In this document: positions 10,135-29,049 of the stretch, piece after piece
Layout of the letters: every line of letters begins with the position of its first letter
Position numbering within the stretch: the stretch's first letter is position 1
Assembly: GCF_000786655.1 (NCBI RefSeq)
Contig: NZ_JROM01000056.1
Location: forward strand, 1-50,350
DNA length: 50,350 nt
Direction of reading: 5' to 3'
Origin: Kocuria marina
Lineage (GTDB): Bacteria > Actinomycetota > Actinomycetes > Actinomycetales > Micrococcaceae
Translations under genes and position numbers: made by a program
The notes under the pieces: model-generated
Databases searched by the model: none
What the model saw: only the letters and a program-made list of their open reading frames with translations
What the model was told of the DNA's origin: nothing

Positions 10135-10923
10135 TCAGGCGCCGGTGTGGCCCATGCGGCGGGAGATCTCCGTGGCCGCGAGACTCACTGCGTGGCACAT
10201 GTGCCGTGCCTGTTCCTCGCCCACACGGAAACGCGGCGCAGCGACCATGAGCCCGGCCACCAGATCGCCCCGGTGGTCCCGGACCCCGGCGCAGATGCCC
10301 ACCTCGTCCACGCAGGTCTTGCCGTAGTTGAGTGCCACTCCCGAGAGCCGGACCTTCGCCAGTTTCTCCAGGTAGTTCGCCACGTGGGGTTCGTCCTGGA
10401 CGGGTAGCTCTGTGGCGCCCGACACCACCAGGGACCGGATGCGCGGTTCGGGTTGGTCGGAGAGGAACAGTTGGACGGAGGCGCTGTACGCGGTGGTGTA
10501 CCGGGTGCCCAGGGGAGAGGTGTGCTTGATCGGGTGCGGGCTCGGCAGTTGTTCCACGCACACCGCCTCGAAGCCGTTCCACAGTAGCAACGCGGTGGTC
10601 TCTCCGGTCTGCGCCGTGAGTTCCTGCATATGCGGGTAGGCCACCCGCCGCACGTCCATGGTGGCCAGCAGCGGACCGGACACCGTGATCAGCCCCATCC
10701 CCAGGCGGAACTGGCGGGACGCGGGGTCCTGCTCGACCACGTCCGAGTTCTCCAATGTGGCGAGGATCCGAGAGACCGAGGACTTGTGCAGCCCCACCCG
10801 GTTTGCGATCTCGGTGACCCCCAGAAGCGGCTCCTCCGCCGAGAAGCAGCGCAGAACGGCCAGGGCGTGGTCGATCACCGAGCTGCCTTGCGGCCGCCCC
10901 GGTTGCTGGGAGGATGCGCTCAT
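10135..10923 (-). CDS. IclR-family transcriptional regulator
   Basis: A 262-residue protein with an N-terminal winged helix-turn-helix (LLGVTEIANRVGLHKSSVSRILATLENSD, about residues 33-63) and a C-terminal IclR effector domain (QLPSPHPIKHTSPLGTRY, TAYSASVQLFL, GICAGVRDHRGDLVAGLMV). It lies immediately downstream of the creatinase gene on the same strand, separated by a pair of hairpins. The position suggests it controls creatinine/creatine catabolism and binds a pathway intermediate; this is inference from context. AAGGACGG upstream of ATG 10923 supports the start. Confidence 0.88.
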   Translation of the reverse strand: MSASSQQPGRPQGSSVIDHALAVLRCFSAEEPLLGVTEIANRVGLHKSSVSRILATLENSDVVEQDPASRQFRLGMGLITVSGPLLATMDVRRVAYPHMQELTAQTGETTALLLWNGFEAVCVEQLPSPHPIKHTSPLGTRYTTAYSASVQLFLSDQPEPRIRSLVVSGATELPVQDEPHVANYLEKLAKVRLSGVALNYGKTCVDEVGICAGVRDHRGDLVAGLMVAAPRFRVGEEQARHMCHAVSLAATEISRRMGHTGA

Positions 10924-10975
10924 GGGTGTTCCGTCCTTCCGGAGGGGTGGGCAGTGGGCCGGGGTGCTCGGTACT

Positions 10976-11028
10976 GAACGGGTGGGGGCTGTGAGACGGT
11001 GCTACCGCCCCACGGCCCCCACCCGTTC
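10976..11028 (-). terminator. 14-bp inverted repeat after creatinase
   Basis: Arms 10976-10989 (GAACGGGTGGGGGC) and 11015-11028 are perfect complements around a 25-nt loop. It lies 44 bp beyond the creatinase stop codon and 53 bp before the IclR start, so it can end or attenuate transcription running leftward from the creatinine genes. The long loop makes it less certain than its neighbour at 11029-11059. Confidence 0.6.
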
Positions 11029-11059
11029 GGCACCGCACCTCCGTGCGGGGTGCGGTGCC
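11029..11059 (-). terminator. 10-bp hairpin directly after creatinase
   Basis: Arms 11029-11038 (GGCACCGCAC) and 11050-11059 pair perfectly with an 11-nt loop. It starts 12 bp past the creatinase stop and is followed by a second inverted repeat, a tandem arrangement typical of strong termination. Confidence 0.65.
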
Positions 11060-11071
11060 CGGTAGTGCGGA

Positions 11072-12322
11072 TCAGGCGTCCACGATGTTCTTCTCCGGAC
11101 CGTACGGGAACTTGGTGATGTTCTCGGCACCATCCTCGCCCACCACCAGGATGTCGTGCTCACGGTACCCGCCCGCCCCGGGCTGACCCTCGGGGACGGT
11201 GATCATGGGTTCCATGGACACGACCATTCCCGGTTCCAGAACGGTGTCGATGTCCTCGCGCAGCTCCAGGCCCGCCTCGCGACCATAGTAGTGGGACAGC
11301 ACACCGAAGGAGTGCCCGTAGCCGAAGGTGCGGTTGGGCAGCAGGTTGTGGGAGACGTAGATCTTGTTCAGTTCCGCGGCGATGTCCTTGCAGACGGCGC
11401 CGGGCTTGATGAGTTCCAAGCCGGCCTCGTGGACCTCCACGTTGATGTTCCACAGTCGCAGGGATTCCGCGTCCGGCTCACCCAGGAACAGGGTGCGTTC
11501 CAGGGCCGTGTAGTAGCCGCTGGTCATGGGGAAGCAGTTCAGGGAGAGGATGTCCCCGCGGCGCAGCTTACGGGTGGTGGCCCAGTTGTGGGCGCCGTCC
11601 GTGTTGATCCCGGACTGGAACCACACCCAGGTGTCCCGGATCTCGCTGTCCGGGAAGGTGCGGGCGATCTCGTGGACCATGGCCTCGGTGCCGGCCAGCG
11701 CCACCTCGTACTCCATGACGCCTTCGCGGATGGCCTTGCGGATGGCCTCGCCACCCAGGTCGCCGATGCGGGCGCCGTGCTTGATGACCTCGATCTCCTC
11801 CGCGGACTTGATCGTCCGCTGACGCATGGAGTCCTGGGAGACGTCCACCAGCTCGGCGTCCGGGAAGGTCTCCCGGAAACGCCGGCGGATCAGCTCGGGC
11901 ATCGTGTCGTCCTCGACACCGAGGCGCTTGGCGGTGATGCCGCGTTCCTGCAAGGCCTGCTGGACACCGTAGTAGAAGTTGTCACGGCGCCAGTCGGTGT
12001 AGACGATGTTCTCGCCGTAGCTGCGCCGCCACGGCATACCGGCGTCGATGTTGGCCGTCACCGAGACGGAGTCCTCGGGAGTGACCACGAGGGCGTACGA
12101 GCGGCCGAAGTAGGTGAACAGGAAATCGGAGTAGTACTTGATGCCCTGGTAGCTGGTGAGCACCACGGCGTCCAAGTCCTTCTCCGCCATGATCTGGCGC
12201 AGCCCGCCCAGCCGGCGCTCGAACTCCGCGTCCGAGAACGTCAGGGGCGTCTTCTCGCCGTTGTGCAGGACCTTGAGGCGCTCCAGGTCGGACACGCTGG
12301 TGGTGGGGGTATCGGTGGACAT
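11072..12322 (-). CDS. Creatinase (creatine amidinohydrolase, EC 3.5.3.3)
   Basis: 416 residues with the pita-bread fold shared with aminopeptidase P. Similarity to Pseudomonas putida creatinase is strong along the whole length: IVYTDWRRDNFY, SMRQRTIKSAEEIEVI, DTWVWFQSGINTDGAHN, GDILSLNCFPMTSGYYTALERTLF, FGYGHSFGVLSHYYGREAG, VVSMEPM and PGAGGYREHDILVVGEDGAENI. His245 corresponds to catalytic His232 of the P. putida enzyme. It hydrolyses creatine to sarcosine and urea. The true start is ATG 12320-12322, directly after GAAGGAG; the frame is open far upstream but overlaps creatininase. Creatininase lies 47 bp upstream on the same strand, so the two should be co-transcribed. Confidence 0.96.
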   Translation of the reverse strand: MSTDTPTTSVSDLERLKVLHNGEKTPLTFSDAEFERRLGGLRQIMAEKDLDAVVLTSYQGIKYYSDFLFTYFGRSYALVVTPEDSVSVTANIDAGMPWRRSYGENIVYTDWRRDNFYYGVQQALQERGITAKRLGVEDDTMPELIRRRFRETFPDAELVDVSQDSMRQRTIKSAEEIEVIKHGARIGDLGGEAIRKAIREGVMEYEVALAGTEAMVHEIARTFPDSEIRDTWVWFQSGINTDGAHNWATTRKLRRGDILSLNCFPMTSGYYTALERTLFLGEPDAESLRLWNINVEVHEAGLELIKPGAVCKDIAAELNKIYVSHNLLPNRTFGYGHSFGVLSHYYGREAGLELREDIDTVLEPGMVVSMEPMITVPEGQPGAGGYREHDILVVGEDGAENITKFPYGPEKNIVDA

Positions 12323-12369
12323 TATTTCTCCTTCGTGTGGTGTGGATGTCCGGACTCGAGGGCGTATGG

Positions 12370-13149
12370 TCAGCGCTCGAGCCCGAGTTCGGTGGAAAGA
12401 TCGGTGGCCAAGTCCGCAACGGTCTGCTCGAACAGCAGCCGTCCCTTCTGCGCCGTGGAACCGCTCGGCGCGGACAGTGCGCCCGTGTGCGGGGTCCGTT
12501 CCGGAACGACCGGTAGCCGGTCGAACCGGGGGAGCAGGGCGGGGCCGTGTTCCACGGCCTCGTCCATGTGCACCAGTTCGGGGTGCAGATGGAGCATGAG
12601 GGAGGTTTCGAGGACTCCGCCGTGCTCGATGTCCCAGCCGGGGAAGCCCTGGGGGTACACGGTTGCGAGGGTGCTCTCGGAAACGTAATCCCAATAGGAC
12701 AACAGCAGGACCGATGGGCCGGCAGGGTCGGACAGGCCGAGTTCACGCAGCGCCAGGTCCACGCCCTCGTAGAGGAATTGGTAGTTCTCGTAGTGGCCGT
12801 TGAGGAACACGACGTGACGGACACCTTGGTGCAGGAATGAGCGGGTGATGTCCCGGGTGATGCCGATCAAGTTATCTGCATCGAGGCTCAGAGTGCCCCG
12901 CAAGTGGTTTCCCCCGCCGGACTTCTGTTGGGATTTGTACCCGTAGTTGAGGGTCTGGGCCACCTTGGCACCGGTGCGCTCGGCCACCCCGAGACTCACG
13001 GCGGTCGCGAGCAGGCTGTCCGTTCCCAGGGGGAGGTGGGACCCGTGTTGTTCGAGCGCCCCCACGGGGACCAGGACGGTGGTGCGTTCGTTGTCGAGCC
13101 AGTTGGAGAATTCAGGTGCCGTGGCATGTGCGAGCAGGGAAGTTTTCAC
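12370..13149 (-). CDS. crnA: Creatininase (creatinine amidohydrolase, EC 3.5.2.10)
   Basis: 259 residues, the usual length. Metal ligands of the P. putida enzyme (E34, H36, D45, H120, E122) are all present with a one-residue offset: E33 and H35 in ALEQHGSH, D44 in GTD, H119 and E121 in NGHYEN. QYGYKSQQKSGGGNH-like and LSYWDYV, GWDIEHGGVLETSLML are further hallmarks. It interconverts creatinine and creatine with a binuclear metal centre. The start is GTG 13147-13149, overlapping the transporter stop by 4 bp (GTGA) and preceded by AAAGGGGG, so translation is probably coupled to the transporter. Confidence 0.96.
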   Translation of the reverse strand: MKTSLLAHATAPEFSNWLDNERTTVLVPVGALEQHGSHLPLGTDSLLATAVSLGVAERTGAKVAQTLNYGYKSQQKSGGGNHLRGTLSLDADNLIGITRDITRSFLHQGVRHVVFLNGHYENYQFLYEGVDLALRELGLSDPAGPSVLLLSYWDYVSESTLATVYPQGFPGWDIEHGGVLETSLMLHLHPELVHMDEAVEHGPALLPRFDRLPVVPERTPHTGALSAPSGSTAQKGRLLFEQTVADLATDLSTELGLER

Positions 13150-14939
13150 GCGTGTCCCCCTTTCATGGGATCTTCATCCGGCGCGGTGGAAGGCCGGCGG
13201 GAATCCGCGACGGAGGTGTCGGTGAGGATGGGCATCTCTCCGGTGGGGAGACCGTGCTCGTCCACGTAGTCGTCCTCAGGGCGAGGATTCGGGTCGTTGA
13301 TCTCTTTCTCGAGTCTCCTGCTGTCCTTGGTCCGTGTGACCAGCCTGCGGATCAGGTTGGCGATCATCAGGAAGATGATGAAGGAGAAGGGGAAGGCCCC
13401 GATGATGGTGCCGGTCTGGACCGTGTCGACCACCGAGGTGCCACCGATGGACAGGAGCACGGTCGCCACGGCGGCAATGCTCACAACCAGGACCACCCGA
13501 AACCACGGACCGGCCTTCCGGGGTGCGGACACGAACTCGGCAAGCGCGTAGGTCCCTGAGTCAAGGCTGGTGACGTAGTAGGTGGCCACGAGGATGGTGG
13601 CCACCACCAGGAGGATCCCTCCCACGAGCGGGACCATTTCGAGCGCTGCGAACAGACCGGAGGAGGTGTCTGCGGCGACCTTATCTGCAATTTCACCGCT
13701 GCTTTGCTGGTTGTAGTACACCGCGGCGGATCCAATGATGCCGATCCAGATCATGACGATCAACGACGGGATAATGGTCACGCCCAGGATGAATTCCCGG
13801 ATGGTGCGACCACGGGAAATCCTGGCGATGAATCCCCCGACGAAGGGGGAGAAGGCGATCACCCAGCACCAGATGAAGACTGTCCACGGTCCACTCCAGC
13901 TATCGGACCAGCTCTCGAGCGGGGCACCGGCTGTGCCGGAGTCGGACCAGAAGCTCATCGGGATGAAGTTGTAGATGAAGGTACCGAAGGTCTGCGTCAG
14001 GTTCGAAAGAACGAAAACGATGGGGCCGAAGAGGAAGACCCCCACGACCAGCACGATACTGAGCACCGAGTTGGCCTCGCTGATGCGCTTCATGCCCTTG
14101 TTGACCCCGACGAATGCCGAGAAAGCGGCGAACGCGGCTAGTGCGACGATGACGATGACCCATACGGTGATGCTCGGCTCCACGCCGGTGAAGGTGGACA
14201 GGCCGCTGGTGAACTGCATCACGGCGAAACCGAAAGAAGTCGCGAGACCCAGGACGGTGGCGATGATGGCCAATAGTTCGACAATCACGCCTGCGGAACG
14301 CTGCAGGGGTGCGGGGAGGATGTCAACGGTGGCCTCACGGAAGGTCAGGGTCTTCCCCAGATTATGGTGGGAGTAGGCAAGGCAGATGGCAACCACGCAG
14401 TACATCGCCCACGCGGTCAATCCCCAGTGGAAATAGGCCCAGACCATCCCGGGTTCCCCCGGGCTGTCGGAGCCGGGGACCACGGGAGCCTCGTCGCCCA
14501 GCAGCATGGGCTCGGCAACGGACCAGAAGATCAGTCCCACGCCCTGCCCGCAGGCGAACAGCATCGAGTACCAGGCGAACTTGCTGTGCTCGGGCCGAGC
14601 CTTCGGGCCGCCCAGTCGAACCCGGCCGATCTTGCTGAACGCCAACCACGCGCACACTGCGATGGCCGTCAAGGAATAGAGCACGAACCACCAGGTGAAT
14701 CCGGAGGTCACCCACGTCCGAAGATCGTTGATGACGCGAGCCGACCCGTCGGGATTGACGCTGACGGCCACGATGACCGCGATGATCAACAGCGGGGGCA
14801 GGACCGTGATGATCGTTCGATCGACCGGTGGGATCACCCGTCCTCGGAACCGTGGAAGCGAAACCTTCAGCTGCTGATCTGCCTCGGGCACTGCTTCGCC
14901 CGTGCGGTCCGTGACCTGCTGGTCTTTAGTGCGGGCCAT
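13146..14939 (-). CDS. BCCT-family transporter, probable creatinine/creatine importer
   Basis: 597 residues with about 12 membrane segments. WWFVLYSLTAIAVCAWLAFS, FAWYSMLFACGQGVGLIFW and the tryptophan-rich segment WTVFIWCWVIAFSPFVGGFIARISRGRTIREF are typical of betaine/choline/carnitine transporters. Charged tails of ~50 residues flank the core. The substrate is inferred from the operon: the stop codon overlaps the creatininase start, so creatinine or creatine (both N-methylated, betaine-like) is most likely. ATG 14937-14939 is chosen because GGAAGGAGG sits just upstream. Upstream DNA holds GTTGCA-type half-sites. Confidence 0.92.
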   Translation of the reverse strand: MARTKDQQVTDRTGEAVPEADQQLKVSLPRFRGRVIPPVDRTIITVLPPLLIIAVIVAVSVNPDGSARVINDLRTWVTSGFTWWFVLYSLTAIAVCAWLAFSKIGRVRLGGPKARPEHSKFAWYSMLFACGQGVGLIFWSVAEPMLLGDEAPVVPGSDSPGEPGMVWAYFHWGLTAWAMYCVVAICLAYSHHNLGKTLTFREATVDILPAPLQRSAGVIVELLAIIATVLGLATSFGFAVMQFTSGLSTFTGVEPSITVWVIVIVALAAFAAFSAFVGVNKGMKRISEANSVLSIVLVVGVFLFGPIVFVLSNLTQTFGTFIYNFIPMSFWSDSGTAGAPLESWSDSWSGPWTVFIWCWVIAFSPFVGGFIARISRGRTIREFILGVTIIPSLIVMIWIGIIGSAAVYYNQQSSGEIADKVAADTSSGLFAALEMVPLVGGILLVVATILVATYYVTSLDSGTYALAEFVSAPRKAGPWFRVVLVVSIAAVATVLLSIGGTSVVDTVQTGTIIGAFPFSFIIFLMIANLIRRLVTRTKDSRRLEKEINDPNPRPEDDYVDEHGLPTGEMPILTDTSVADSRRPSTAPDEDPMKGGHA

Positions 14940-15015
14940 GGGGCCTCCTTCCATCGACGGCGATCTCGCCGACGACCGTTCGCTAAAAATGCAGGATGGC
15001 TGGCTGTCCACCGAA

Positions 15016-15222: not shown

Positions 15223-15523
15223 TCAATGGGTGAGTGGGCGGCCTGCAGTCTCTTTGGAGACGGCTACGGCGATCAAAGATCCAAGGGCTGCAACCACCAA
15301 GTACCATGCTGGTGCCAAGGGCGTCCCGAGAGCTGAAATCAAAAGAGTGGCCATGAAAGGCGCGGTGCCGCCGAACAACGCATTTGAGACGTTGAAACTG
15401 ACGGCAAAGCCGCTGTAGCGCATTCGGGTGGGGAACGATTCGGCCAGGAAGCTGGGTAGTGTCCCGTCGTTCAGGGTCAGCATGGCTCCGAGGACCACCT
15501 GAAGTATGAGGATCAGGACAAAC
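15223..15523 (-). pseudogene. C-terminal relic of an MHS-type MFS transporter, cut by the IS3-family element
   Basis: About 100 residues beginning FVLILILQ and including NDGTLPSFLAESFPTRMRYSGF, the late part of metabolite:H+ symporter (MHS) carriers. LFGGTAPF and a final membrane helix follow before the stop at 15223-15225. The 5' end stops exactly at the 4-bp target duplication of the IS. The start of probably the same gene lies on the other side (16780-16856), but about 300 residues are missing between them, so the gene is dead. It may have served uptake of a creatinine-related compound. Confidence 0.82.
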
Positions 15524-15565
15524 GGGACTGCCCCGACTTCCGTTGACTCTCGGGGTTGATCGGTT

Positions 15566-16432
15566 TCAGGCGGCCTTGAGGCCGTGATTGATGGTCTCAA
15601 ACTCGACCGGCGTGAGGCGACCCAGACGGCGTTGCCGTCGCCGGCGATGGTAGGACTTCTCGATCCAGGTGACGATCGCCAGCCGCAGGTCCTCCCGGCT
15701 GGACCAGCGCTGCCGGTCCAAGACGTTCTTCTGCAGCAGGGCGAAAAAGGACTCCATGGCGGCGTTGTCCGCGCACGCCCCGACTCTGCCCATAGACCCC
15801 ACAAGATCGTGATGGGCGAGCTCATGCACGAATTTCCGGGCTCGAAATTGACTGCCGCGGTCGCTGTGGACCACGCAGCCGGCCACTGTCCCGCGGCGGG
15901 CCACCGCGCTGCGCAGGGCCGTGACCGCCAAGGACGCCTTCATCCGGGAATCGATGGAGTACCCGACGATCCGGTTGGAGTAGACGTCCTTGATCGCGCA
16001 GAGGTAGAGCTTGCCCTCGTCGGTGCGGTGCTCGGTCAGATCGGTGAGCCACAGCCGGTTGGGCGCGCCGGCGGTGAAGTTCCGCTCCACCAGGTCGTCA
16101 TGGACCGGTGGACCGGGCTTGCGGTTGAGCCCGCGCTTCTTGGAGTGGACGCTGAAGAGCCGCTGGGCCGAGCACAGCCGCTGCACGCGGTTCTCCCCGG
16201 CGGTGATGCCGTGGTCGGGCAGCTCGTCGGCGATGAACCGGTAGCCGAAAGCCGGGTCGTCGGCGTGGATGGTCATGGCGGCGTCGATCAGGTGCGCATC
16301 GTCCCAGTCCCGGTCGGTGACCGGGTGGGCGCGCCACTGGTAGAAGGCTTGCTTGGAGAAGCCCAGTATCCGGCAGGTCACCGCGACGGGAATCCCGTCG
16401 GCGGCCAGGTCGAGGACCAGCGGAAACATCAT
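15566..16432 (-). CDS. IS3-family transposase, catalytic subunit (orfB)
   Basis: 288 residues with an N-terminal HTH_21-like region (GIPVAVTCRILGFSKQAFYQW) and an rve integrase core. The DDE triad is visible as D in LWLTDLTEHRT, D in VVHSDRGSQF and E in MESFFALLQ, followed by the basic end YHRRRRQRRLG. It overlaps orfA by 4 bp. The minus strand at the junction reads CCCCCAAAATGATG, an A-run suited to -1 slippage, so an OrfAB fusion is likely made as in other IS3 elements. All motifs look intact. Confidence 0.93.
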   Translation of the reverse strand: MMFPLVLDLAADGIPVAVTCRILGFSKQAFYQWRAHPVTDRDWDDAHLIDAAMTIHADDPAFGYRFIADELPDHGITAGENRVQRLCSAQRLFSVHSKKRGLNRKPGPPVHDDLVERNFTAGAPNRLWLTDLTEHRTDEGKLYLCAIKDVYSNRIVGYSIDSRMKASLAVTALRSAVARRGTVAGCVVHSDRGSQFRARKFVHELAHHDLVGSMGRVGACADNAAMESFFALLQKNVLDRQRWSSREDLRLAIVTWIEKSYHRRRRQRRLGRLTPVEFETINHGLKAA

Positions 16433-16746
16433 TTTGGGGGCAGCTCACGGGCGAAGAACGCCGCGGCCCGGCGCAGGATCTCGTTCTCCTGCTCGAGCAG
16501 TCGGTTGCGCCGCTTCAGCGCCCGCAACTCCTCCGCCTCGGCCGTCGTCACGCCAGGGCGGACGCCGTCGTCGACGTCGGCCTTGCGCAACCAGTTGTGC
16601 AAGGTGGCTTCTGAGATCCCGAAGTCGCGGGCGATCTGGGACAGCGGGGCCTCGTGCTTGCGGGCCACCGCCACCACGTCGCGGCGGAACTCCTCAGGGT
16701 AGGGCTTGGGCACGGTTTCATCCTCACTGTGAGGAAGGATCCTCAC
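16429..16746 (-). CDS. IS3-family transposase, DNA-binding subunit (orfA)
   Basis: 105 residues with a helix-turn-helix (PYPEEFRRDVVAVARKHEAP, IARDFGISEATLHNWLRKAD) and a C-terminal leucine-zipper-like helix (EELRALKRRNRLLEQENEILRRAAAFF). This is the standard orfA design for binding the terminal repeats. The start is GTG at 16744-16746. Confidence 0.9.
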   Translation of the reverse strand: MRILPHSEDETVPKPYPEEFRRDVVAVARKHEAPLSQIARDFGISEATLHNWLRKADVDDGVRPGVTTAEAEELRALKRRNRLLEQENEILRRAAAFFARELPPK

Positions 16747-16779
16747 AAGTCAGGAGTCAAGGAAACCCGGGGCAGTCCC

Positions 16780-16856
16780 AAACTCGCAGCAATGACTCGG
16801 TGTCGCTCGCTGGAGGTGACCGCTTTTGAGGTGATGCTGGATGTGTGTTGTGCCAC
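16780..16856 (-). pseudogene. N-terminal relic of the broken MHS transporter
   Basis: A GTG at 16854-16856, preceded by AAAGGA with a 5-nt spacer, opens a frame of 25 codons ending SERHRVIAASL at the IS boundary. The RRVxAASL pattern matches the start of MHS carriers, just before the first membrane helix. The orientation agrees with the C-terminal relic at 15223-15523. Joining the two sides across the single target copy gives a stop codon within two codons, so an internal deletion is needed as well as the IS insertion. Confidence 0.65.
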
Positions 16857-16937
16857 AGGATTCCTTTCGGGCGGCCTGTCATGTAGGGACAGGAGTGTGA
16901 TCAGTGGCAGTGAAAAACTCACTAAGCAGACAACTAT

Positions 16938-16954
16938 GTTGCAGTGAGTGCAAG
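16938..16954. promoter_or_regulatory. Putative operator GTTGCA-N5-TGCAAG
   Basis: Near-perfect inverted repeat with a 5-bp spacer, 82 bp upstream of the MHS transporter relic. It has the same design as the site at 17134-17150 and half-sites near the BCCT gene. Confidence 0.5.
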
Positions 16955-17133
16955 CTAGTTGCTTAAAAGTAAGCTACATCACATGTCGAGTCAAGGCTTG
17001 GAGGGCAAGATTTTGCGGTCGTTCGCTCCGGAACACCCTCGGAAGACCTCTTCCAGGGCGCTGGGCCCTGATTCCTACAAACCCGGCGGGAGGGGGGTCA
17101 AGCCTCACTAGAACGTCGCGACGGCACAACTTT

Positions 17134-17150
17134 GTTGCAATTTATGCAAC
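17134..17150. promoter_or_regulatory. Putative operator GTTGCA-N5-TGCAAC
   Basis: GTTGCAATTTATGCAAC is a perfect 17-bp inverted repeat with a 5-bp AT spacer, the style of a dimeric repressor site. It lies between two relics and 277 bp upstream of the MHS start. Candidate binders are the IclR (10135-10923) or GntR (17996-18649) proteins; which one is not shown by the sequence. Confidence 0.55.
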
Positions 17151-17230: not shown

Positions 17231-17483
17231 TCAGCGAACACCCCACAGCCGCGGACCTCGCGAGGGGCGGGGCGCCAAGGGGGGTGGGAATTCGGTCCCT
17301 GCGGGGCGGGCATCCGCTTTCTCGCCGAATGGAACCGCGGCGATATCGGTGGCGGGCGGGACGATTTGGTGGGGCTGGGTGTCGTCCATGACCTGGTGCC
17401 GGGTTTCGGGCAGCAGCCATGTCGCGATAAGCGCCCCCGCGGCGGTCATCGTGAGATAGGTCGCGGGGGCCAGGCGGTTGTCG
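17231..17483 (-). pseudogene. C-terminal relic of a second MFS/MHS-type transporter
   Basis: The minus-strand frame DNRLAPATYLTMTAAGALIATW followed by LLPETR is the last membrane helix and exit motif of an MHS-type carrier, followed by a hydrophilic tail of ~50 residues to the stop at 17231-17233. Homology to a transporter ends near 17483, where the divergent amidase relic begins. Both genes therefore lost their 5' parts at one junction, consistent with a deletion through a former divergent promoter. The family call rests on a single helix and is moderate. Confidence 0.6.
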
Positions 17484-17487
17484 GTTT

Positions 17488-17839
17488 GAGAAGAACCGCG
17501 CTTCTGCGTTCCCGGGAACGAGCCTTGAGCTCTTCCTGACCTCCAACCGTATCGACACTCTGATTGTGACCGGTGCGACTGCGGCCGGGTGTGTGTCACA
17601 CCGTCGAGGGTGCGATCGGGAAGGGATTCCGCCCGATCATCCCCAGGGAGACCATCGGCGATCGTTTCCCCGGCGTCGTGCAGTGGAACCTCTACGACAT
17701 CGACAACAAGTTCGGTGACGTGGAGTCCACGGATTCGGTGGTGGATTACCTGAACGGTCTCCCACGGTTCGAGGACACGGTTCCGAAGAACCTCTCGGAT
17801 CCCCAGTCCGAGGTGCTGGCTCCTGCGAATCCGGCTTGA
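17488..17839 (+). pseudogene. N-carbamoylsarcosine amidase relic (isochorismatase-like), 5'-truncated and frameshifted
   Basis: Two frames together encode the C-terminal ~115 residues of a cysteine hydrolase: EKNRASAFPGTSLELFL, NRIDTLIVTGATAAGCV, then after a frame change at about 17596, HTVEGAIGKGFRPIIPRETI, VVQWNLYDIDNKFGDVESTD and EDTVPKNLSDPQ. These agree closely with Arthrobacter N-carbamoylsarcosine amidohydrolase (EC 3.5.1.59) as I remember it, including the active-site Cys in TAAGCV. The normal GCVRHT needs two more bases, so a 2-nt deletion is likely. The first half is absent. In the N-methylhydantoin route this enzyme makes sarcosine from N-carbamoylsarcosine, so the relic fits the island. 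Confidence 0.8.
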
Positions 17840-17995: not shown

Positions 17996-18649
17996 TCAGA
18001 GCACCTCGCGCATGTGTTGTTCGAACTCCCCCACGTGCTCACGCATGATCTCCGCAGCGTCTTCACCGCGGCCGTTGAGAACGGCATCCAGCAGTTGTGA
18101 ATGGGTCGCAATATGTTCCACGGGAGTGGGATTCCGGGTGGCGGCCAAGCACCAGATTCGGGTAGCCAGGTTCCCGTACCGGTTCAGCGTGGCCTCCAGA
18201 TGAGCATTGCCAGCCGCGCAGTAGAGGGCGCGGTGGATCGTGCTGTCCCAGCGCAACGCGTCTTGCGGATCCGAGGAACCTCCCGGGGTGGCCGTATCGA
18301 GCTGGTCCTTGAGGTCCTTGAGCTCACCGCGTGATCGGTGGTCCAGCCGCTTGGCCGCCAACCGCACAGCGAGGGGCTCAAGCACTTCTCGGACCTCGGA
18401 GATTTCGGAGAGCACGGTGATGTCCACAGGGGTGGCGAACGTGCCGCGACGAGGGAAAGTGGCCACCAATCGCTCGGTCTCCAACCTTTTCAGCGCCTCA
18501 CGCAGTGGAGTGCGTCCCACCTCGAGCTCAAGTCCCAGCTGCGTCTCGTTCAATGGTTCACCGGGGGCGATCTCCAAGAAGATGAGCTTGTCCTGGAGGA
18601 GCTCGAACGCCCGGGCGGCCAGTGATCCGCTGGATTTAGTCTCTTTCAT
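17996..18649 (-). CDS. GntR/FadR-family transcriptional regulator (FCD domain)
   Basis: 217 residues. The N-terminal winged helix (LQDKLIFLEIAPGEPLNETQ, LELEVGRTPLREALKRLETERL, PRRGTFATPV) is GntR type. The C-terminal all-helical FCD domain (VREVLEPLAVRLAAKRL, WDSTIHRALYCAAGN, HIATHSQLLDAVLNGRG, AAEIMREHV) carries the usual Asp/His metal-ligand pattern. It is divergent from glyA with a 223-bp gap, so it probably controls the glyA-sox operon and its own gene. AGAGGAG precedes ATG 18649. The ligand is unknown; sarcosine, glycine or a related acid would fit. Confidence 0.9.
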   Translation of the reverse strand: MKETKSSGSLAARAFELLQDKLIFLEIAPGEPLNETQLGLELEVGRTPLREALKRLETERLVATFPRRGTFATPVDITVLSEISEVREVLEPLAVRLAAKRLDHRSRGELKDLKDQLDTATPGGSSDPQDALRWDSTIHRALYCAAGNAHLEATLNRYGNLATRIWCLAATRNPTPVEHIATHSQLLDAVLNGRGEDAAEIMREHVGEFEQHMREVL

Positions 18650-18810: not shown

Positions 18811-18820
18811 GGATCACACT

Positions 18821-18843
18821 CTGATATATCAATTACGTATCAG
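18821..18843. promoter_or_regulatory. Putative operator CTGATA-N11-TATCAG
   Basis: An inverted repeat with 6-bp arms (18821-18826 and 18838-18843), containing the 10-bp palindrome TGATATATCA (18822-18831), in an AT-rich patch of an otherwise GC-rich region. It lies 29 bp before glyA and at the presumed transcription start, the place for a GntR repressor site. Confidence 0.5.
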
Positions 18844-18872
18844 ACACGGACTAACACTGGAGGAGGCCGAGG

Positions 18873-20210: not shown

Positions 20211-21427
20211 TGGCTGACCTCTTGCCGGACCACCCGGATTTTCTGTGGCGCAACCCGGATCCCAAACCCTCCTACGACGTGGTGATCGTCGGCGGTGGCG
20301 GGCACGGGCTGGCTACCGCCTACTACCTGGCCAAGCACCACGGGATCACCAATGTGGCGGTGCTGGAAAAGGGATGGCTGGGCGGCGGCAACATGGCCCG
20401 CAACACCACCATTATCCGCTCCAACTACCTGTGGGACGAGTCCTCGGGGATGTACGAGCACTCCTTGAAGCTGTGGGAGCAGTTGCCGGACGAGCTCGAC
20501 TACGACTTCTTGTTCTCTCAGCGCGGGGTGATGAATCTGGCCCACACGCTGCAGGACGTGCGCGAAAGCACGCGGCGCGTGAACGCGAACAAGCTCAACG
20601 GCGTGGACGCGGAATGGATCGACCCCCAGCAGGTCAAGGAACTGTGCCCCATCATCAACATCGGTGACGACATCCGGTACCCGATCATGGGAGCCACCTA
20701 TCAGCCGCGCGCGGGCATCGCCAAGCATGACCACGTGGCCTGGGCCTTCGCCCGCAAGGCGGACGAGATGGGCGTGGATATCATCCAGAATTGCGAGGTC
20801 ACCGGTTTCGTGAAGGAGGCCGGGCGAGTGATCGCCGTGGAGACCAACCGGGGCCGGATCAACACCGGCAAGGTCGCGCTGTGCGGGGCGGGTAACTCCT
20901 CGGTGCTGTCCGAGCTGGCGGGCTTCGAGCTGCCCATCCAGTCCCACCCGCTGCAGGCTCTGGTCTCCGAACTGCACGAGATGGTCCACCCCACCGTGGT
21001 GATGTCCAACCACGTCCACGTGTACGTCTCCCAAGCGCACAAGGGCGAACTGGTCATGGGTGCCGGCATTGACGCCTACAACGGCTACGGTCAGCGCGGT
21101 TCGTTCCACGTAATCGAGGAGCAGATGGCCGCCGCGGTGGAGTTGTTCCCCATTTTCGCCCGGGCCCACGTGCTGCGCACGTGGGGTGGCGTGGTGGACG
21201 TCACGCTGGACGCCTCTCCGATCGTGTCCAAGACACCCGTGGATCAGCTCTACGTCAATTGCGGCTGGGGCACCGGAGGTTTCAAGGGAACTCCGGGGGC
21301 GGGCTTCACGCTCGCGCACACCATTGCCCATGACGAACCACACCCGCTCAATGAGGCCTTCAGTCTCGAACGGTTCGAGACGGGCATGCTGATCGATGAG
21401 CACGGCGCCGCCGCCGTGGCGCACTAG
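20210..21427 (+). CDS. soxB: Sarcosine oxidase beta subunit
   Basis: 405 residues, normal for the heterotetrameric enzyme. A Rossmann FAD motif ([20 protein letters not shown], residues ~23-42) starts a DAO-type fold. His173 in AKHDHVAW corresponds to the histidine that carries covalent FMN in the Stenotrophomonas and Corynebacterium enzymes. [15 protein letters not shown] near the end completes FAD binding. This subunit oxidises sarcosine to glycine, forming H2O2, and passes the methyl-derived carbon to folate on the alpha subunit. It begins on the last base of the glyA stop codon. Confidence 0.96.
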
Positions 21428-21439
21428 TAGGGAGCGAAC

Positions 21440-21736
21440 ATGCTGCAGATCAATTGCCCGTGGTGCGGTCCACGGGATGAGACCGAATTTCACTATGGAG
21501 GGGAGGCCCACGTGCCCTACCCCGAGGACCCGTTCGAGCTGGACGACCAGCAGTGGGCCCGCTACCTGTTCTACCGCGCGAATCCGCGGGGGTTGTTGTC
21601 CGAGCGTTGGTCCCACGCCGTCGGCTGCCGCCGTTGGTTCAACGCGGTGCGTGACACGGTGACCTACGAGTTCAAGACCGAGTACAAGATGAGCGATCCC
21701 CGGCCAAACCTGGGAAATGTTGGAGGTGCCTTGTGA
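21440..21736 (+). CDS. soxD: Sarcosine oxidase delta subunit
   Basis: 98 residues. An N-terminal zinc site ([21 protein letters not shown]) with two Cys and a His, and a later Cys in [12 protein letters not shown], match the zinc-binding delta subunit. [14 protein letters not shown] and [13 protein letters not shown] are invariant family blocks. It has a structural role in the alpha-beta-gamma-delta complex. It lies 12 bp after soxB and overlaps the soxA GTG start by 4 bp. Confidence 0.95.
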
Positions 21737-24645
21737 ACGAGCAAACCCATCGCTTGGCGGCCGAGCGCGCCGTCGGGCACGGCATCGACCGCTCCACCAC
21801 GGTGGACTTCACCTTCGAGGGTGTCCCGTACACGGGCTACCGGGGAGACACCGTGGCATCCGCCCTGGTGGCCAACGGCAAGATCGACTGTGCCCCGTCC
21901 ATGTACCGGCGCCGCCCCCGTGGGCTGTACTCCGCGGGTGTGGAGGAGCCTAACGCGCTGATCAAGGTCTCCCCCCGTCACCAGCAGGACGTGGCCGAGT
22001 CCATGCTGCAGGCCACGGTCACCGAACTGACCCCCGGGATGGACGCCGTCTACCTCGGAGGCCACGGGCAGTTGGACCCCGAGACCGACCGCGCCTACTA
22101 CGACCGCAAGTACGTCCACACGGACGTGCTTGTGATCGGCGCGGGCCCGGCGGGGCTGTCCGCCGCCCGGGACGCCGCGGCCTCCGGGGCACGCGTGATC
22201 CTCATGGATGACCAGCCGCGCCCGGGCGGGGCCCTGCTGTCCGGCAAGGGCGAGCGCATCGACGGTGTCCCGGCCCTCGAATGGGTCGAACGCGTGAGCG
22301 TCGAGCTGGAGGCGGCCGAGGAGGTCACGGTGCTCACCCGCACCACCGCCATCGGCAGCTACGACAGTAACTACGTGGTGGCCGTCCAGCGCCGCACCGA
22401 TCACCTCACGGGAGAGGTGCCCAAGGGTGTGTCCCGCGAGCGAGTGTGGCACGTGCGCGCCCGGCAGGTGGTACTTGCCCAGGGCACCCACGAGCGCCCC
22501 GTCGTTTTCCGCAACAATGACCGCCCCGGGATCATGCTGGCCTCCGCGGTGCGCAGCTACCTCAACCGCTACGGCGCCGCGGCCGGCTCCACCGTGGTGG
22601 TCGCGACCAACAATGACTCCGCTTACCGGCTCGTGGCGGATCTCGTGGAGCGCGGCATCACGGTCGCCGGGATCGTGGATGCCCGCCCTCAATCCTCCGC
22701 GGTCTCCGCCGAGGTCGCCGGTGCCACCGGCCTGACCGTGCGCTACGGCTCGGCCGTGATCGACACCACCGCCGACGCGGACGGGCGCGTGAGCGGCGTC
22801 GTCGTCAGCGCGCTCGACGACGCGGGCGAACTCGCCGGTGAGCCCGAGACCCTCGAGGCGGACCTGCTGGCGGTGTCCGGTGGCTGGAACCCCGTGATCC
22901 ACCTGCACAATCAGCGCCGCGGGCCGCTGCGCTGGAACGAAACGATCGCGGCGTTCGTGCCCGAGACCGCGATGGCGGGCCAGCATGTGGCCGGCGGAAC
23001 CGCGGGCACCCTGGACCTGGCTGGGTGCCTGGTCGAGGGCGCCCAAGCCGGGGCGAACGCCGCCCGCGCGGCGGGCTTCAGCGCTACGGCGCGTGCCTCC
23101 ACGACCGCCCCGGAGGCCCCGGGGCTCGTGCGCCCGCTGTGGTTGGTCCCCGGCGCCGAGGGCGAGCCCGGCATGTGGGACGAGCACTTCGTGGACTTCC
23201 AACGCGACCAGGCCGTCAAGGATGTGATGCGCTCGCTGGGTGCCGGGATGCGCTCGGTGGAGCACGTCAAGCGCTATACCTCGATCTCCACGGCCAACGA
23301 TCAAGGCAAGACCTCCAGCGTGAACACCATGGGCGTGATAGCTACCGCGCTGGGCGGCAGCTCACCGGACGAGATCGGCGTGACTGCCTTCCGTGCTCCC
23401 TACACCCCGGTGGCCTTCGCGGCGCTCGCGGGCACCCAGCGCGGGCAGATGTTCGACCCGGCCCGGTTGTCCGCGCCCCACGGGTGGCACCTGGCGCACG
23501 GGGCGAAGTTCGAGGACGTGGGGCAGTGGAAGCGGCCGTGGTACTACCCCCAGGACGGTGAAGATATGGACACCGCGGTGCTGCGCGAGTGCGCGGCAGT
23601 GCGCAACTCCGTAGGGTTCATGGACGCCACCACCCTGGGCAAGATCGAGATCCGCGGCAAGGACGCGGGGGAGTTCCTCAACCGCGTGTACACCAATGCG
23701 TTCAAGAAACTCAAGCCCGGTATGGGCCGCTACGGCGTGATGTGCAAGCCTGACGGCATGGTCTTCGACGACGGCGTGACGCTGCGGCTGGACGAGGACC
23801 GGTACTTCATGACCACCACCACCGGTGGGGCCGCCAACGTGCTGGACTGGCTCGAGGAATGGCTGCAGACCGAGTGGCCGGAGTTGGACGTGGTGTGTAC
23901 CTCCGCGACCGAGCAGTGGACCACCGTGGCCGTGGCCGGGCCCCGTTCCCGGGACGTGGTCGCCAAGCTCGTCCCGGAGTTGAACGTGTCCAACGACGCG
24001 TTCCCGTTCATGGCCTACCGAGAGGTCTCCCTTGCCAGCGGGATCCCCGCCCGCATCTGCCGGATCTCGTTCTCGGGGGAGCTCGCGTTCGAGATCAACG
24101 TCCCCACATGGTGGGGAGCGGCGATCTTTGAGGACGTGTGGCAGGCCGGTCAGGAATATGGCATCACGCCCTACGGCACCGAGACCATGCACGTGCTGCG
24201 TGCCGAGAAGGCTTTCCCCATCGTGGGCCAGGACACGGACGGTACCGTCACCCCGCAGGATCTGGGGATGGATTGGGTGGTGTCCAAGCGTAAGGACTTC
24301 ATCGGCAACCGCTCGTACTTCCGCAAGGGACTGGAGAGCGAGGTGCGCAAGGAACTGGTCGCCGTGCTGCCCGTGGACACCGAGTATCGCTTGCCGGAAG
24401 GCACCCAATTGGTCAAACAGGGCACACCGATCACTCCTCAGGAGGGACCCGTGCCCATGGAGGGGCATGTGACCTCCAGTTATAACAGTACCGCGCTGGG
24501 TCGGACCTTCGGGCTGGCCCTGATCAAGGACGGCCGCAACCGCATCGGTGAGACCCTGCAGGCACCCCTGGACGGGCAGCTGGTGGACGTGCTGGTGGCC
24601 GAACCCGTCGTGTACGACCCGGAAGGAAAGCGTCGAGATGGCTGA
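21733..24645 (+). CDS. soxA: Sarcosine oxidase alpha subunit
   Basis: 970 residues, full length, GTG start. The N-terminal domain (residues ~20-85, [15 protein letters not shown]) has the ferredoxin-like fold without cluster cysteines. An NAD-binding Rossmann motif ([18 protein letters not shown]) starts near residue 133. The C-terminal third from about residue 600 ([52 protein letters not shown]) is a GcvT-type folate domain that converts tetrahydrofolate to 5,10-methylene-THF with the demethylated carbon. It ends 8 bp inside the soxG gene. Confidence 0.96.
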
Positions 24646-25354
24646 GCAAACCATGATGAACAGGGCCGAGCGCACGGCGGAGCACGCGGCGCACTTGCGC
24701 CGCAGCCCCGTCGAGCACCTGGCCGGGGAGATGAAGAGCGCGAGCGTGTCCGGCGAGCGCGGGGTGAGTCTGCGGGAGGTGCCTTTCCTGACCATGGTCG
24801 GGATCAGGGTGACGCCGGGGACCCCCGCCGCGGAGGCGGTCACCGAGGTGCTGGGCTTGGGGCTCCCCGCCGCATGCGGTGAGGTCACGGGGGACACCTC
24901 GGAGGCAGCCGTGGTGTGGCTGGGCCCGGACGAGTTCTTGGCCGTCACCGGGGACGAGGTCGCCCCCGCGCCCGGACTGGACACCCGCTCCGAGCGCGAC
25001 CCGGGCGCCCTGCCCACCCTGGCCACCCACCCGCTCGCGCAGACGCTCGCGGCGGTCTTCGCCGAGGGTGGCCCGGCCGGGCAGGCCGTGGACCTGTCCG
25101 CCAACCGCACCACGCTGGAGCTGTCCGGGCCCTCGGCGCGCGCCGTCTTGGAGAAGGGCTGCCACGTGGATCTGCACCCGCGCAGCTTCACCCCCGGGCG
25201 GGCGGTGTCCACGTTGCTGGGCCCGGTACCCGTCCTGCTGTGGCAGACGGAGGACCTCACCTACCGGATCATGCCCAGGGCGTCCTTCGCCGATTACACG
25301 GTCCGGTGGCTCCTGGACGCGATGGTGGAGTACTCCGGGGAAGAAGTCGCCTGA
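24638..25354 (+). CDS. soxG: Sarcosine oxidase gamma subunit
   Basis: 238 residues, somewhat longer than the ~200 of many gamma subunits, with an Ala/Gly-rich middle. [14 protein letters not shown] at the front and [34 protein letters not shown] with [15 protein letters not shown] are conserved blocks of the SoxG/GcvT-like fold. ATG 24638 follows GGAAGG and overlaps soxA by 8 bp. A 14-bp inverted repeat lies directly after the stop. Confidence 0.93.
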
Positions 25355-25355
25355 G

Positions 25356-25397: not shown

Positions 25398-25433
25398 ACC
25401 ACAGTCGTGAAAGATCGAAGAAGGAGTTGCCTC

Positions 25434-26324
25434 GTGACGGACGTACAACGGGCGCGCACCGGCGCTGAGACCACCGAACTGGTTCTGACCCTCGACTGCC
25501 CGGAGGACGTGGGTATCGTGCACGCGGTCACCGGCGTGCTGCTTGAGCACGGGTGCACCATTGCGGAACTGAAGCAGTTCGACGATCGCCGTCAGGAACG
25601 GTTCTTCATGCGCGTCCACGTGGTGTCATCCAGGGGTGAGGCACTGGATGAGCAAGCGCTGCGGGCGGACTTGGAGCCGGTGGCGCAACGGTTCCACATG
25701 AACTGGGAGCTGCGACCTCACGGGCAGAAGCGCCGCGTGCTGGTGATGGTCTCCAAGTACGGTCACTGCCTCAATGACCTGCTGTTCCGTGCCCGAGTGG
25801 GGGAACTTCCCATTGAGATCGTGGCGGTGGTGTCCAACCATCTGGATCACCAAGCGTTGGTGGAGTGGCACGGCATCGACTTCCATCACGTGCCCGTGAC
25901 CAAGGAGAACAAGCCGGAGGCGGAGACACGACTCCTGGATTTGGTGGACCAATACACGGTGGATCTGGTGGTGCTCGCCCGGTACATGCAGGTGCTGAGT
26001 GAGTCCCTGGTGGAACGCATGCGGGGGCGGGTCATCAACATTCACCACTCGTTCCTCCCCAGTTTTAAGGGCGCCAAGCCGTACCACCAGGCGTACGAAC
26101 GTGGGGTGAAGACCGTGGGAGCCACCGCACACTACGTGAGTGACGAACTGGATGAAGGCCCCATCATTGCTCAGCAGGTTCTGGAGGTCGATCACACTCA
26201 CGGCCCGGAAGACCTGGTGGCCGTTGGGCGGGACTCGGAATGCAAGGCGTTGTCCAACGCCGTTCGGTGGCACTGCGAAGGCCGTGTGATCCTCACCGGG
26301 AACCGCACGGTGGTGTTGCGGTAG
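25434..26324 (+). CDS. purU: Formyltetrahydrofolate deformylase (EC 3.5.1.10)
   Basis: 296 residues. An N-terminal ACT domain (LTLDCPEDVGIVHAVTGVLL, CTIAELKQFDD) precedes a formyl-transferase fold: KYGHCLNDLLFRARVGELP, VARYM-like LARYMQVLSE, and NIHHSFLPSFKGAKPYHQA with the catalytic Asn-His and the Asp in DELDEGPIIAQ. It releases formate from 10-formyl-THF. In this operon it would free tetrahydrofolate when sarcosine oxidation floods the one-carbon pool. GTG 25434 follows AAGGAG by 7 nt. Confidence 0.94.
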   Translation: MTDVQRARTGAETTELVLTLDCPEDVGIVHAVTGVLLEHGCTIAELKQFDDRRQERFFMRVHVVSSRGEALDEQALRADLEPVAQRFHMNWELRPHGQKRRVLVMVSKYGHCLNDLLFRARVGELPIEIVAVVSNHLDHQALVEWHGIDFHHVPVTKENKPEAETRLLDLVDQYTVDLVVLARYMQVLSESLVERMRGRVINIHHSFLPSFKGAKPYHQAYERGVKTVGATAHYVSDELDEGPIIAQQVLEVDHTHGPEDLVAVGRDSECKALSNAVRWHCEGRVILTGNRTVVLR

Positions 26325-26477
26325 CCGATGTCGGCATCCAGGCCGCCCACCGCAGCAGTTTGATCGCACGGCCCGGTACGGAACCCCGCCAGATGGTTAA
26401 TGAGACAAGTCAGGTGGGCGGGGGAGTCTCCGCGGGAAGACGGGGACGCCAATCGCAGCCGGTAAAAGGGAATCATT

Positions 26478-27668
26478 ATGGCAATGCCAACGAGAACGGG
26501 AACCCGTCTGGATACGGCCGAGCGAACGAGTGTCTTGCGAGTGCTCACCTACGCGGGAGCGATCATCGCCTTCCTCATCGGATCCGGCTTCGCAACGGGC
26601 CAAGAAATACTGCAGTACTTCGCGTCCTACGGATTCCAGGGAATCGTCGGTACGGGTGCCGTGGTGTTGATCCTAATAACCTACGTGGCCGCTGAATTCC
26701 TCTTCGTGGGTCATATGAAGAAATTCGAACACCCCTCGATGATCTTCCGGTACTACGCGGGGAAGCACCTGGGTACGTTCTTCGACTACTTCTCAATACT
26801 TTTCGTGTTCCTCAGCTTCACGGTGATGGTCTCCGGTGCGGGGGCAGTGTTCGAGGAGCACTTCGGATTGCCCAAGTACCTGGGCGGTGCGGGTTTGGCC
26901 ATCGTGGTGAGCGCAACGGTCTGGTTCGGGTTGAAGAACCTTGTCGATGTGATCGGCAAGATCGGCCCCGTCATCGTAGTTGTGGCGGTGCTGCTGGGGG
27001 TTCTATCCTTCATTCGTGAACCCGGGAACATCGCGGCGGGAAACGCCATGGTGGCCGACCTCGAACTTACCCGAGCATCGACTAACTGGTTCATGTCCGG
27101 GTTGTCGTACGTGGGATTCTGCATGTTGTGGTTGGCTGCTTTCCTCACGGCACTCGGGAAAACTGCTCGCAGTCGTAGGGAAGCAGTGTCCGGTGGCCTA
27201 GTCGGCGGTGCGGCGTTCTCGGCGGCGTGTGTGGTGGTCGGGTTGGGGCTGCTCGCCAACATCGCACGGGTCAACGGGACTGAGATCCCGATGTTGGTGC
27301 TTGCCAGGGACTTCAGTCCGGTACTGGCCGCCGCTATTTCGGTGATGATTGTCGCCGGTATTTACACCACGGCCGTTCCTTTATTGTGGGCGGTTTCGTC
27401 GAGGTTCTTCACGGACAGCACTCGAAATTTCAAATACCTCGCGATAGCGCTGGCGGCGGTCGGTGCCGTCGTGGGTCTTCTGCTCCCGTTTTCACAGATG
27501 GTCAACGTCGTTTATGTCATCAATGGCTACGTGGGAATTTTCTTGCTAGTTTTGATGATTGCGAAAACATGTCGTCGTCTCATGCCCAGGCGGTCTGGGT
27601 GGGCCCATGACGCCGGAGCCAATATTGATAATTTTCAGGAATCATTGCTACCAGAAAACCGGAGGTGA
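26478..27668 (+). CDS. YkvI-like membrane transport protein (APC-superfamily fold)
   Basis: 396 residues with about 10 membrane segments. [24 protein letters not shown] at the start resembles the first helix of YkvI-type and LeuT-fold carriers, with an unwound GSGFATGQE. It lies between purU and sdaA, and its stop codon overlaps the sdaA ribosome site. Context suggests movement of serine, glycine or sarcosine; direction and substrate are not known. Base composition is less GC-rich than its neighbours and codon use is less biased, suggesting a more recent arrival. AAAAGGG precedes ATG 26478. Confidence 0.75.
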
Positions 27669-27672
27669 GATC

Positions 27673-29049
27673 GTGGCACTCAGTGCTCTGGATTTGTTCT
27701 CGGTGGGTATCGGACCGTCGTCCTCCCACACGGTGGGGCCCATGCGGGCCGCACGGCTCTTCGTGGCCGGGCTCGCCGCCGACGCCCTGCTGGAGTCCGT
27801 GACCCGGGTCCACTCCCAGCTCTTCGGCTCCCTGGGGGCCACCGGGTGGGGCCACGGATCGGACAAGGCCGTGGTGCTGGGGCTCATGGGCGAGGACCCC
27901 GAGACCGTGGACACGGACCTCGCGGACCAGAAGGTCGCGCTCGCGGGGGAGAAAGGGCAACTGCTGCTCGGGGGAACACACCCCGTAGCCTTCGACCGTT
28001 CCCGTGACGTGATCATGCACCGCAGGAAGTCCCTGCCCACCCACCCCAACGGGATGAGCTTCACCGCCTACGGCGCCGCCGGCGAGGTCATCCGCGAACG
28101 GATCTACTACTCCGTGGGCGGTGGCTTCGTGGTGGACGAGTCCGCGAGCGGTGCGGACAAGGTGGTCGCGGACAGCACCCCCGTGGCCTACCCGTTCAGC
28201 ACGGGTGATGAATTGCTGGCCATCTGCGAGACCGAGGGTCTGAGCATCGCCCAGATCATGGCCGCGAACGAGCTGTCGTGGCGGCCCGCGGAACAGACCC
28301 GGGAGCAGCTGCTGCACATCTGGTCCGTGATGCAGGAATGTGTGGAGAACGGGTGCACGCGCGAGGAGAAGACCCTGCCCGGGGGACTGAAGGTGCGCCG
28401 TCGTGCGCCGGAGATGCGCAAGCGGCTGCTCGCCAAGGAACCCGGCAACGATCCCTTCTACGGCATGGACTGGGTCAACCTGTACGCGCTCGCGGTCAAC
28501 GAGGAGAATGCGTCCGGCGGGCGGATCGTCACGGCCCCCACGAACGGTGCGGCGGGGATCATCCCGGCGGTGCTGCACTTCTACACGCGGTTCATGGCGG
28601 ACGCGTGCGATGACAAGATCGTGGACTTCCTGCTCACCGCCGCGGCGATCGGGATCGTGATCAAGGAGAACGCCTCGATCTCCGGCGCCGAGGTGGGTTG
28701 CCAGGGCGAGGTTGGATCGGCGTGTTCCATGGCGGCCGCCGGCCTGTGTGCGGTGCTGGGCGGGAGCCCGCGGCAGGTGGAGTGTGCGGCGGAAATGGGG
28801 ATCGAGCACAACCTGGGGCTCACGTGCGACCCTGTGGGCGGGCTCGTGCAGATTCCGTGCATCGAGCGCAATGCGATCGCGAGCGTCAAGGCCATCAACT
28901 CCGCCCGGCTGTCCATGCAGGGGGACGGGACCCACAAGGTCTCCCTGGACCAAGTGGTCAAGACCATGCGGGAGACCGGCGCGGACATGAAGATCAAGTA
29001 CAAGGAGACCTCGCGCGGCGGCCTCGCGGTCAACGTGATCGAATGCTGA
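27673..29049 (+). CDS. sdaA: L-serine dehydratase, single-chain iron-sulfur type (EC 4.3.1.17)
   Basis: 458 residues, beginning with [24 protein letters not shown], the family signature. The beta (N-terminal) and alpha domains are fused. Cys343 (GCQGEVG), Cys385 (TCDPVGG) and Cys396 (IPCIERNA) are the [4Fe-4S] ligands; the numbers match those I recall for the Legionella enzyme. It deaminates serine to pyruvate and ammonia, the exit step of the creatinine-to-pyruvate route. GTG 27673 is chosen because GGAGGT lies 6 nt upstream; the longer frame upstream overlaps the transporter. Confidence 0.95.

Follow-up and report, generated by a model that had tools for sequence, protein, structure and literature searches.

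The stretch of DNA considered here (the window, 50,350 nucleotides) belongs to Kocuria marina (contig NZ_JROM01000056.1), whose genome assembly, named G000 below, comprises 3,066,141 bases in 62 contigs. The window carries a group of genes for the breakdown of creatinine and creatine (coordinates in Table 1). From left to right, genes for an IclR-family regulator, creatinase (creA), creatininase (crnA) and a carrier of the BCCT family lie on the minus strand. Between the carrier gene and glyA there are transporter remnants around an insertion sequence (IS) of the IS3 family, a relic of an N-carbamoylsarcosine amidase gene and a minus-strand gene for a GntR-family regulator. These are followed by a plus-strand run of glyA, soxB, soxD, soxA, soxG, purU, a permease-like gene and sdaA. 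With a probability of about 0.8 the locus is read as a creatinine and creatine catabolic island of Micrococcales type, which stands directly before the only serine dehydratase gene of its host, was recently exchanged between species and has lost a transporter. Enzyme families, gene order, remnants, stepwise identity and the state of the site in relatives were read from the sequence, and from these we infer the steps of the pathway. The island as such is real but ordinary; it is the probable recent exchange, the resident last enzyme and the broken transporter that are of interest. Much waste nitrogen takes the form of creatinine and creatine, and clinical assays of creatinine make use of these enzymes. 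In this locus one may see a clean case, provided by nature, in which a catabolic unit has passed between species and come to lie next to a resident gene whose product finishes the pathway; the locus also yields specific testable guesses, namely a creatinine importer and two operators.

Enzymes and proposed pathway

Matches in Pfam, NCBIfam and the Protein Data Bank (PDB) confirm that the enzymes named in the initial annotation are present with open reading frames, close to where they had been placed, and that the two regulators belong to different families. In the PDB comparison creatinase scored 574, 534 and 515 bits with solved creatinases and 93 bits with the best M24 peptidase, and by family its natural reading is creatine amidinohydrolase. 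The nearest NCBIfam family is ectoine hydrolase, where the match (89.7 bits) lies so far under the cut-off of 575 that no NCBIfam family claims the protein. At what we take to be the catalytic positions of creatinase the residues are identical in the alignment with 1chm, and the same holds in the alignment with 1j2t for the presumed metal-ligand and catalytic positions of creatininase; to this extent, for two enzymes at the presumed positions, the claim of intact active sites can be upheld. All four subunits of sarcosine oxidase (B, D, A, G) are encoded in one operon. SoxA, SoxB, SoxD, PurU and SdaA each exceed their own NCBIfam cut-off; SoxG, with 121.4 bits, remained under its cut-off of 143.95, though it passed in Pfam. 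Serine hydroxymethyltransferase (SHMT) is matched twice in the host genome and PurU twice above its cut-off, with the other glyA and the other purU on contig C14, so the island genes are extra copies.

Creatinine degradation is a textbook pathway, and the series creatinine, creatine, sarcosine, glycine, serine, pyruvate that had been proposed for this locus is the reading that suggests itself and has the support of the family assignments. Creatinine would enter through the BCCT carrier and be opened by creatininase to creatine, which creatinase would split into sarcosine and urea. The four-subunit sarcosine oxidase would convert sarcosine to glycine, methylene-tetrahydrofolate (or formaldehyde) and hydrogen peroxide, GlyA would combine glycine with the one-carbon unit to serine, and SdaA of the host would release pyruvate and ammonia from it. 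PurU would free tetrahydrofolate on one-carbon overflow, and urea would pass to the chromosomal urease. As had been remarked, no urease is found in the window; the single Urease_alpha match of the host genome lies on contig C40, where Pfam supports urease beta and alpha subunits, UreF and a UreG-type protein, and where UreA, UreE and UreD were read by eye from the list of open reading frames (ORFs). The genes on C40 rule out the missing urease as a real gap.

The resident sdaA gene and probable exchange of the island

The unit proper stops at the sdaA start codon. The sdaA of the window is the sole SDH_alpha match in the host genome, so it is not a dedicated copy; judged from its site in relatives, it is a resident host gene next to the island. 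A serine dehydratase match is present in all 27 genus genomes searched. Twelve of them carry an sdaA of 83-100% identity that has, as in G000, the metallophosphoesterase gene, the glycoside hydrolase gene or both as neighbours. Three of these 12 (G000, G011 and G023) have the island before sdaA, eight are without it in the sequence covered, and in G015 the contig ends inside sdaA. The hydrolase gene and sdaA are separated by about 120 bases in island-less G018 and by about 1.9 kb in island-less G012. An ORF in the latter gap (L168 6241-7506) looks by eye like a subtilisin-like protease, which suggests that the site accepts different inserts. Eight other genus genomes have sdaA between soxG and purU (74-78% identical), the usual cluster arrangement and the place where a dedicated copy in the order glyA-soxBDAG-sdaA-purU would lie; in the window the gene comes after purU.

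A tree of 35 sdaA rows was rooted at the midpoint (G002, whose gene is in two pieces, was excluded). The site-specific copies form one group (support 100/100), within which G000 forms a pair with the island-less G012; G011 and G023 fall together with G018, which also lacks the island. As a whole the site-specific copies join the cluster-type genes and are separated (100/100) from the second sdaA type found in the genus; with this rooting a cluster-type sdaA may therefore have become the only one of the lineage. A dedicated sdaA is ruled out by the single copy, by the same site in island-less relatives and by the tree; of the three genes that had been called dedicated, glyA and purU do have a second copy in the genome. 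The idea of a displaced sdaA promoter was followed through CACTATGTGAGAC, which is exact in 4 of 11 upstream stretches, all without the island, and has 5 or 6 mismatches in the three with the island and also in three others without it.

Identity to G011 was determined in 250-base steps, 56 over the island (10234-15524 and 17944-26331) and 20 over the flanks. At least 92% identity was found in 49 of the 56 island steps, against 61.0-88.0% in the flank steps, and because the island steps are so much more identical than the flanks, a recent exchange of the island among species of the genus is likely, with recombination in the neighbouring genes as its route. In comparison with G023 the BCCT carrier gene is 99.8% identical over 1782 bases and the part from soxA to purU 97.1% over 2486 bases. 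Identity to the sister genome G012 amounts to 94.9% up to position 8486 and 82.7% over 8655-10104 on the left side, and to 96.7% from 27672 on the right. The patterns of G012 and G011 together suggest replacement of a tract that ends at the start codon of sdaA and whose left end probably falls inside the upstream glycoside hydrolase gene. With its drop in identity to G012 the glycoside hydrolase 15 gene (7990-10122) resembles a mosaic.

Transporters, relics and candidate operators

In G011 an intact transporter of 469 residues, presumably of the MHS (sugar/metabolite) type, is encoded between the BCCT and GntR genes. In G000 residues ~60-370 of the 469 (~310 residues) are gone and the IS3 element lies in their place. 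The element has two transposase frames (15566-16432 and 16429-16746) and is flanked on each side by AAAC; its end repeats agree in 23 of 30 bases. Further copies of this element type occur in the host genome, the nearest being 90% identical over 837 bases, and none is present in the G011 island. Another transposase-like ORF (L124 11527-12750) stands in G011 between the intact transporter and GntR genes, so the spot appears to have taken mobile elements in both genomes. Of 80 named loci, the best of at least 595 stretches in a scan of named genomes, 41 encode a relative of the transporter immediately ahead of creatinase; passages of PMC8864220 suggest that CreT-type transporters carry creatine. 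An association of the MHS-type transporter with crnA was considered and rejected (12 of 20 crnA loci and 26 of 48 loci without crnA, counting the 68 of the 80 with enough flank). Because the last enzyme is resident, the urease lies on another contig and the transporter of pre-creatinase type is broken, the description of the locus as a self-contained unit has to be given up.

The relic between the transporter remnants and the GntR gene consists of an 89-residue piece matching 1nba (E 6.5e-42) and a 50-residue piece matching Isochorismatase (34.4 bits, cut-off 27). An amidase relative at locus L036 of Citricoccus zhacaiensis is 83% identical to it, and by these matches the relic is a remnant of the alternative creatinine route through N-carbamoylsarcosine. 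The permease-like gene, which we take to be YkvI-like, has no Pfam, NCBIfam or PDB match and a G+C content of 0.567. A search of 99 genomes gave 13 other matches, three of which have sarcosine genes no more than 1.5 kb away. Its relatives adjoin sarcosine genes in Brevibacterium (L054) and also in L187, L188 and L193, and in G011 there is none between purU and sdaA. The IS3 element, the disrupted transporter, the amidase relic and the permease-like gene had all been omitted from the initial annotation.

The BCCT carrier does not reach the cut-off of the NCBIfam BCCT subfamily (372 against 407.55 bits). Of the solved chains a trimethylamine carrier is nearest to it, and choline and betaine carriers are also among its nearest solved relatives. 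A BCCT gene is present in 10 of the 20 crnA loci and in none of the 48 loci without crnA (Fisher p 6e-7, with related loci counted as independent). Its occurrence only with crnA in the 68 usable loci suggests that the carrier may import creatinine. To our knowledge, creatinine is not known as a substrate of the BCCT family, and the literature search gave nothing treating creatinine, BCCT and creatininase together.

Two candidate operators were found by counting motifs over 1.88 Mb, with expectations from base composition. The motif TGATATATCA occurs 21 times (0.21 expected), and 19 of these occurrences lie in the spacer between GntR and glyA (GntR and soxB in L032); the other two are one K. 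dechangensis site counted twice, and several occurrences are near copies. For TTGCA-N5-TGCAA 27 occurrences were counted (0.67 expected), 16 before a transporter gene and 7 before creatinase, that is 23 in the expected spacers. Of the remaining four, one lies in a glyA spacer and three are unassigned; two of these three come from the window, ahead of the broken transporter, and in G011 the counterpart of one of them sits 104 bases before the intact transporter gene. Assigned by position, TTGCA-N5-TGCAA is probably the site through which the IclR regulator controls the creatinine half, and TGATATATCA probably that through which the GntR regulator controls the sarcosine half. The IclR regulator was not found in the searched literature combining creatinase, sarcosine and operator. 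It can be proposed, tentatively and at less than even odds, that the BCCT carrier is a dedicated creatinine importer and that the island, by landing at the start codon, took over the only serine dehydratase of the host, which would now be expressed from the sarcosine operon by way of GntR and TGATATATCA.

Relatives, alternative readings and feature coordinates

Among the usable loci crnA stands together with glyA and soxB within reach in eight, and 11 of the 26 other genus genomes have a creatinase. Blocks comparable to the island occur in G013, G003 and G014; that of G013 has creatinase, creatininase, BCCT, glyA, sox, sdaA and purU in one stretch. The shorter locus L042 matches the order of the window from creA to soxB. 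Gene order is also conserved at locus L036 of C. zhacaiensis: IclR, CreA, CrnA, BCCT, GntR, GlyA, SoxB, SoxD, SoxA and SoxG have the same relative order and strands, and TGATATATCA lies in the GntR-glyA spacer. Unlike in the window, the amidase relative is situated beyond IclR, and the stretch compared does not reach the outer end of the sox side. The G011 island (and that of G023) shares genes, site and, in most steps, at least 92% identity with that of G000. The G011 island differs in its intact transporter, in a transposase ORF other than IS3 and in having no permease-like gene before sdaA. With the same or a varied layout in relatives, the island belongs to a known kind that varies in detail.

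The grouping with glyA, purU and sdaA, which had been presented as new, is already described in PMC3534580, where Arthrobacter Rue61a has the arrangement glyA-soxBDAG-sdaA-purU and grows on creatine and sarcosine but not on creatinine; for the arrangement that paper points back to previous studies of Corynebacterium U-96 and Arthrobacter. The cluster of Arthrobacter and Corynebacterium sp. U-96 resembles the present one in having the same enzymes from sarcosine to pyruvate, with glyA first and soxBDAG next, and differs in that sdaA stands between soxG and purU there and after purU and the permease-like gene here. Suzuki 2005 and Meskys 2001, cited for the sarcosine cluster and known to us by title, are said to deal with it. 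Nishiya 1998, known by title and mention, reportedly concerns a creatinine degradation cluster of Arthrobacter sp. TE1826, which as far as the mention goes shares the route through creatininase and creatinase to sarcosine. Passages of PMC8864220 treat creatine genes in Corynebacterium and cite Nishiya 1998, and passages of PMC3691474 describe glyA-soxBDAG-purU in Corynebacterium with a transfer to Colwellia, as well as sox clusters standing with betaine genes.

Several observations weigh against the preferred reading. Four steps over GntR and its spacer are 78.7-86.8% identical to G011, one step before BCCT 75.1% and two sox steps 89.2 and 91.6%. A single transfer in one block is thus not supported, and the misfit of GntR suggests replacement in more than one piece. 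The island of G023 is split across two contigs, half of the crnA loci (10 of 20) are without BCCT in a statistic that treats related loci as independent, and several loci of Arthrobacter and Brevibacterium have no TGATATATCA in their spacers. If the island were instead ancestral at its site and lost elsewhere, the high identity to G011 would reflect slow change. The grouping of resident sdaA (midpoint root) with the sarcosine-cluster type and not with the other genus type (100/100) would suit this, since such a cluster may once have stood here. The flanking coding genes, however, differ by 12-39% per 250-base step and most of the island by less than 8%, and the sdaA tree splits the carriers, G000 from G011 and G023, and joins each with island-less genomes, which makes ancestral presence improbable.

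It is also conceivable, although on the whole unlikely, that the island serves mainly creatine, sarcosine or betaine-derived substrates and that BCCT imports a betaine-like solute and not creatinine. The solved trimethylamine, choline and betaine carriers nearest to it and the betaine genes beside sox clusters in the passages of PMC3691474 are in favour of this; the overlap of the carrier gene with crnA by 4 bases and its restriction to crnA loci (10/20 vs 0/48) speak for creatinine. Least probable is a decaying unit that no longer works. The IS3 insertion, the loss of ~310 transporter residues and the amidase relic in its middle point that way, but every pathway gene is open, creatinase and creatininase retain their key residues and the carrier gene is nearly identical to that of G023 (99.8%, 1782 bases). 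An exchanged catabolic island before a resident sdaA is accordingly preferred as the reading of the features in Table 1.

Table 1. Features of the creatinine and creatine locus in the window
Feature	Position	Strand	Evidence and remarks
IclR-family regulator	10135..10923	-	Pfam IclR_C 74.7 and HTH_IclR 60.3 bits, both above cut-off
Creatinase creA	11072..12322	-	1chm full-length, E 3e-171; start 12322 picked from alignment and reading frame
Creatininase crnA	12370..13149	-	TIGR04448 306.3 bits, cut-off 235; 1j2t E 1e-73
BCCT carrier	13146..14942	-	Pfam BCCT 464.8 bits, cut-off 27; 4-base overlap with crnA; may import creatinine
Transporter C-terminal remnant	15226..15523	-	Sugar_tr 25.2 bits, cut-off 22.3; 469-residue ORF intact in G011
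IS3-family element	15524..16779	-	transpos_IS3 268.4 bits, cut-off 160
Remnant of transporter N-terminal end and upstream region	16780..17013	-	83.3% identity to G011 there
Candidate operator TTGCA-N5-TGCAA, copy 1	16939..16953	not assigned	motif count across loci
Candidate operator TTGCA-N5-TGCAA, copy 2	17135..17149	not assigned	motif count across loci
N-carbamoylsarcosine amidase relic, C-terminal part only, two frames	17455..17839	+	1nba and Isochorismatase matches
GntR-family regulator with FCD domain	17996..18649	-	FCD 83.4, GntR 53.7 bits
Candidate operator TGATATATCA	18822..18831	not assigned	within GntR-glyA spacer
glyA, serine hydroxymethyltransferase	18873..20210	+	SHMT 532.8 bits
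soxB, sarcosine oxidase beta	20210..21427	+	TIGR01373 630.2 bits, cut-off 529
soxD, sarcosine oxidase delta	21440..21736	+	TIGR01374 123.2 bits, cut-off 116.5
soxA, sarcosine oxidase alpha	21733..24645	+	TIGR01372 1258 bits, cut-off 1164; 1vrq full-length
soxG, sarcosine oxidase gamma	24638..25354	+	Pfam SoxG 58.7 bits, cut-off 21
purU, formyltetrahydrofolate deformylase	25428..26324	+	TIGR00655 335.4 bits, cut-off 286
Permease-like gene	26478..27668	+	no library match; not at this place in G011
sdaA, L-serine ammonia-lyase, resident, adjoins island	27673..29049	+	TIGR00720 686 bits

ARAGORN found no tRNA gene in the window, so none lies at the edge of the island, and no RNA element in the window reaches its gathering threshold. 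Among the block proteins scanned, the IS3 transposase was the only such match and no integrase turned up, in a scan that was not aimed at integrases. With a G+C content of 0.646 the island lies below the sequence outside it (0.692 and 0.696). Further to the right, a frame of 159 residues (31525-32004) aligns only with the first part (~20-140 of 400) of allantoate amidohydrolase-type profiles and is perhaps a truncated gene.

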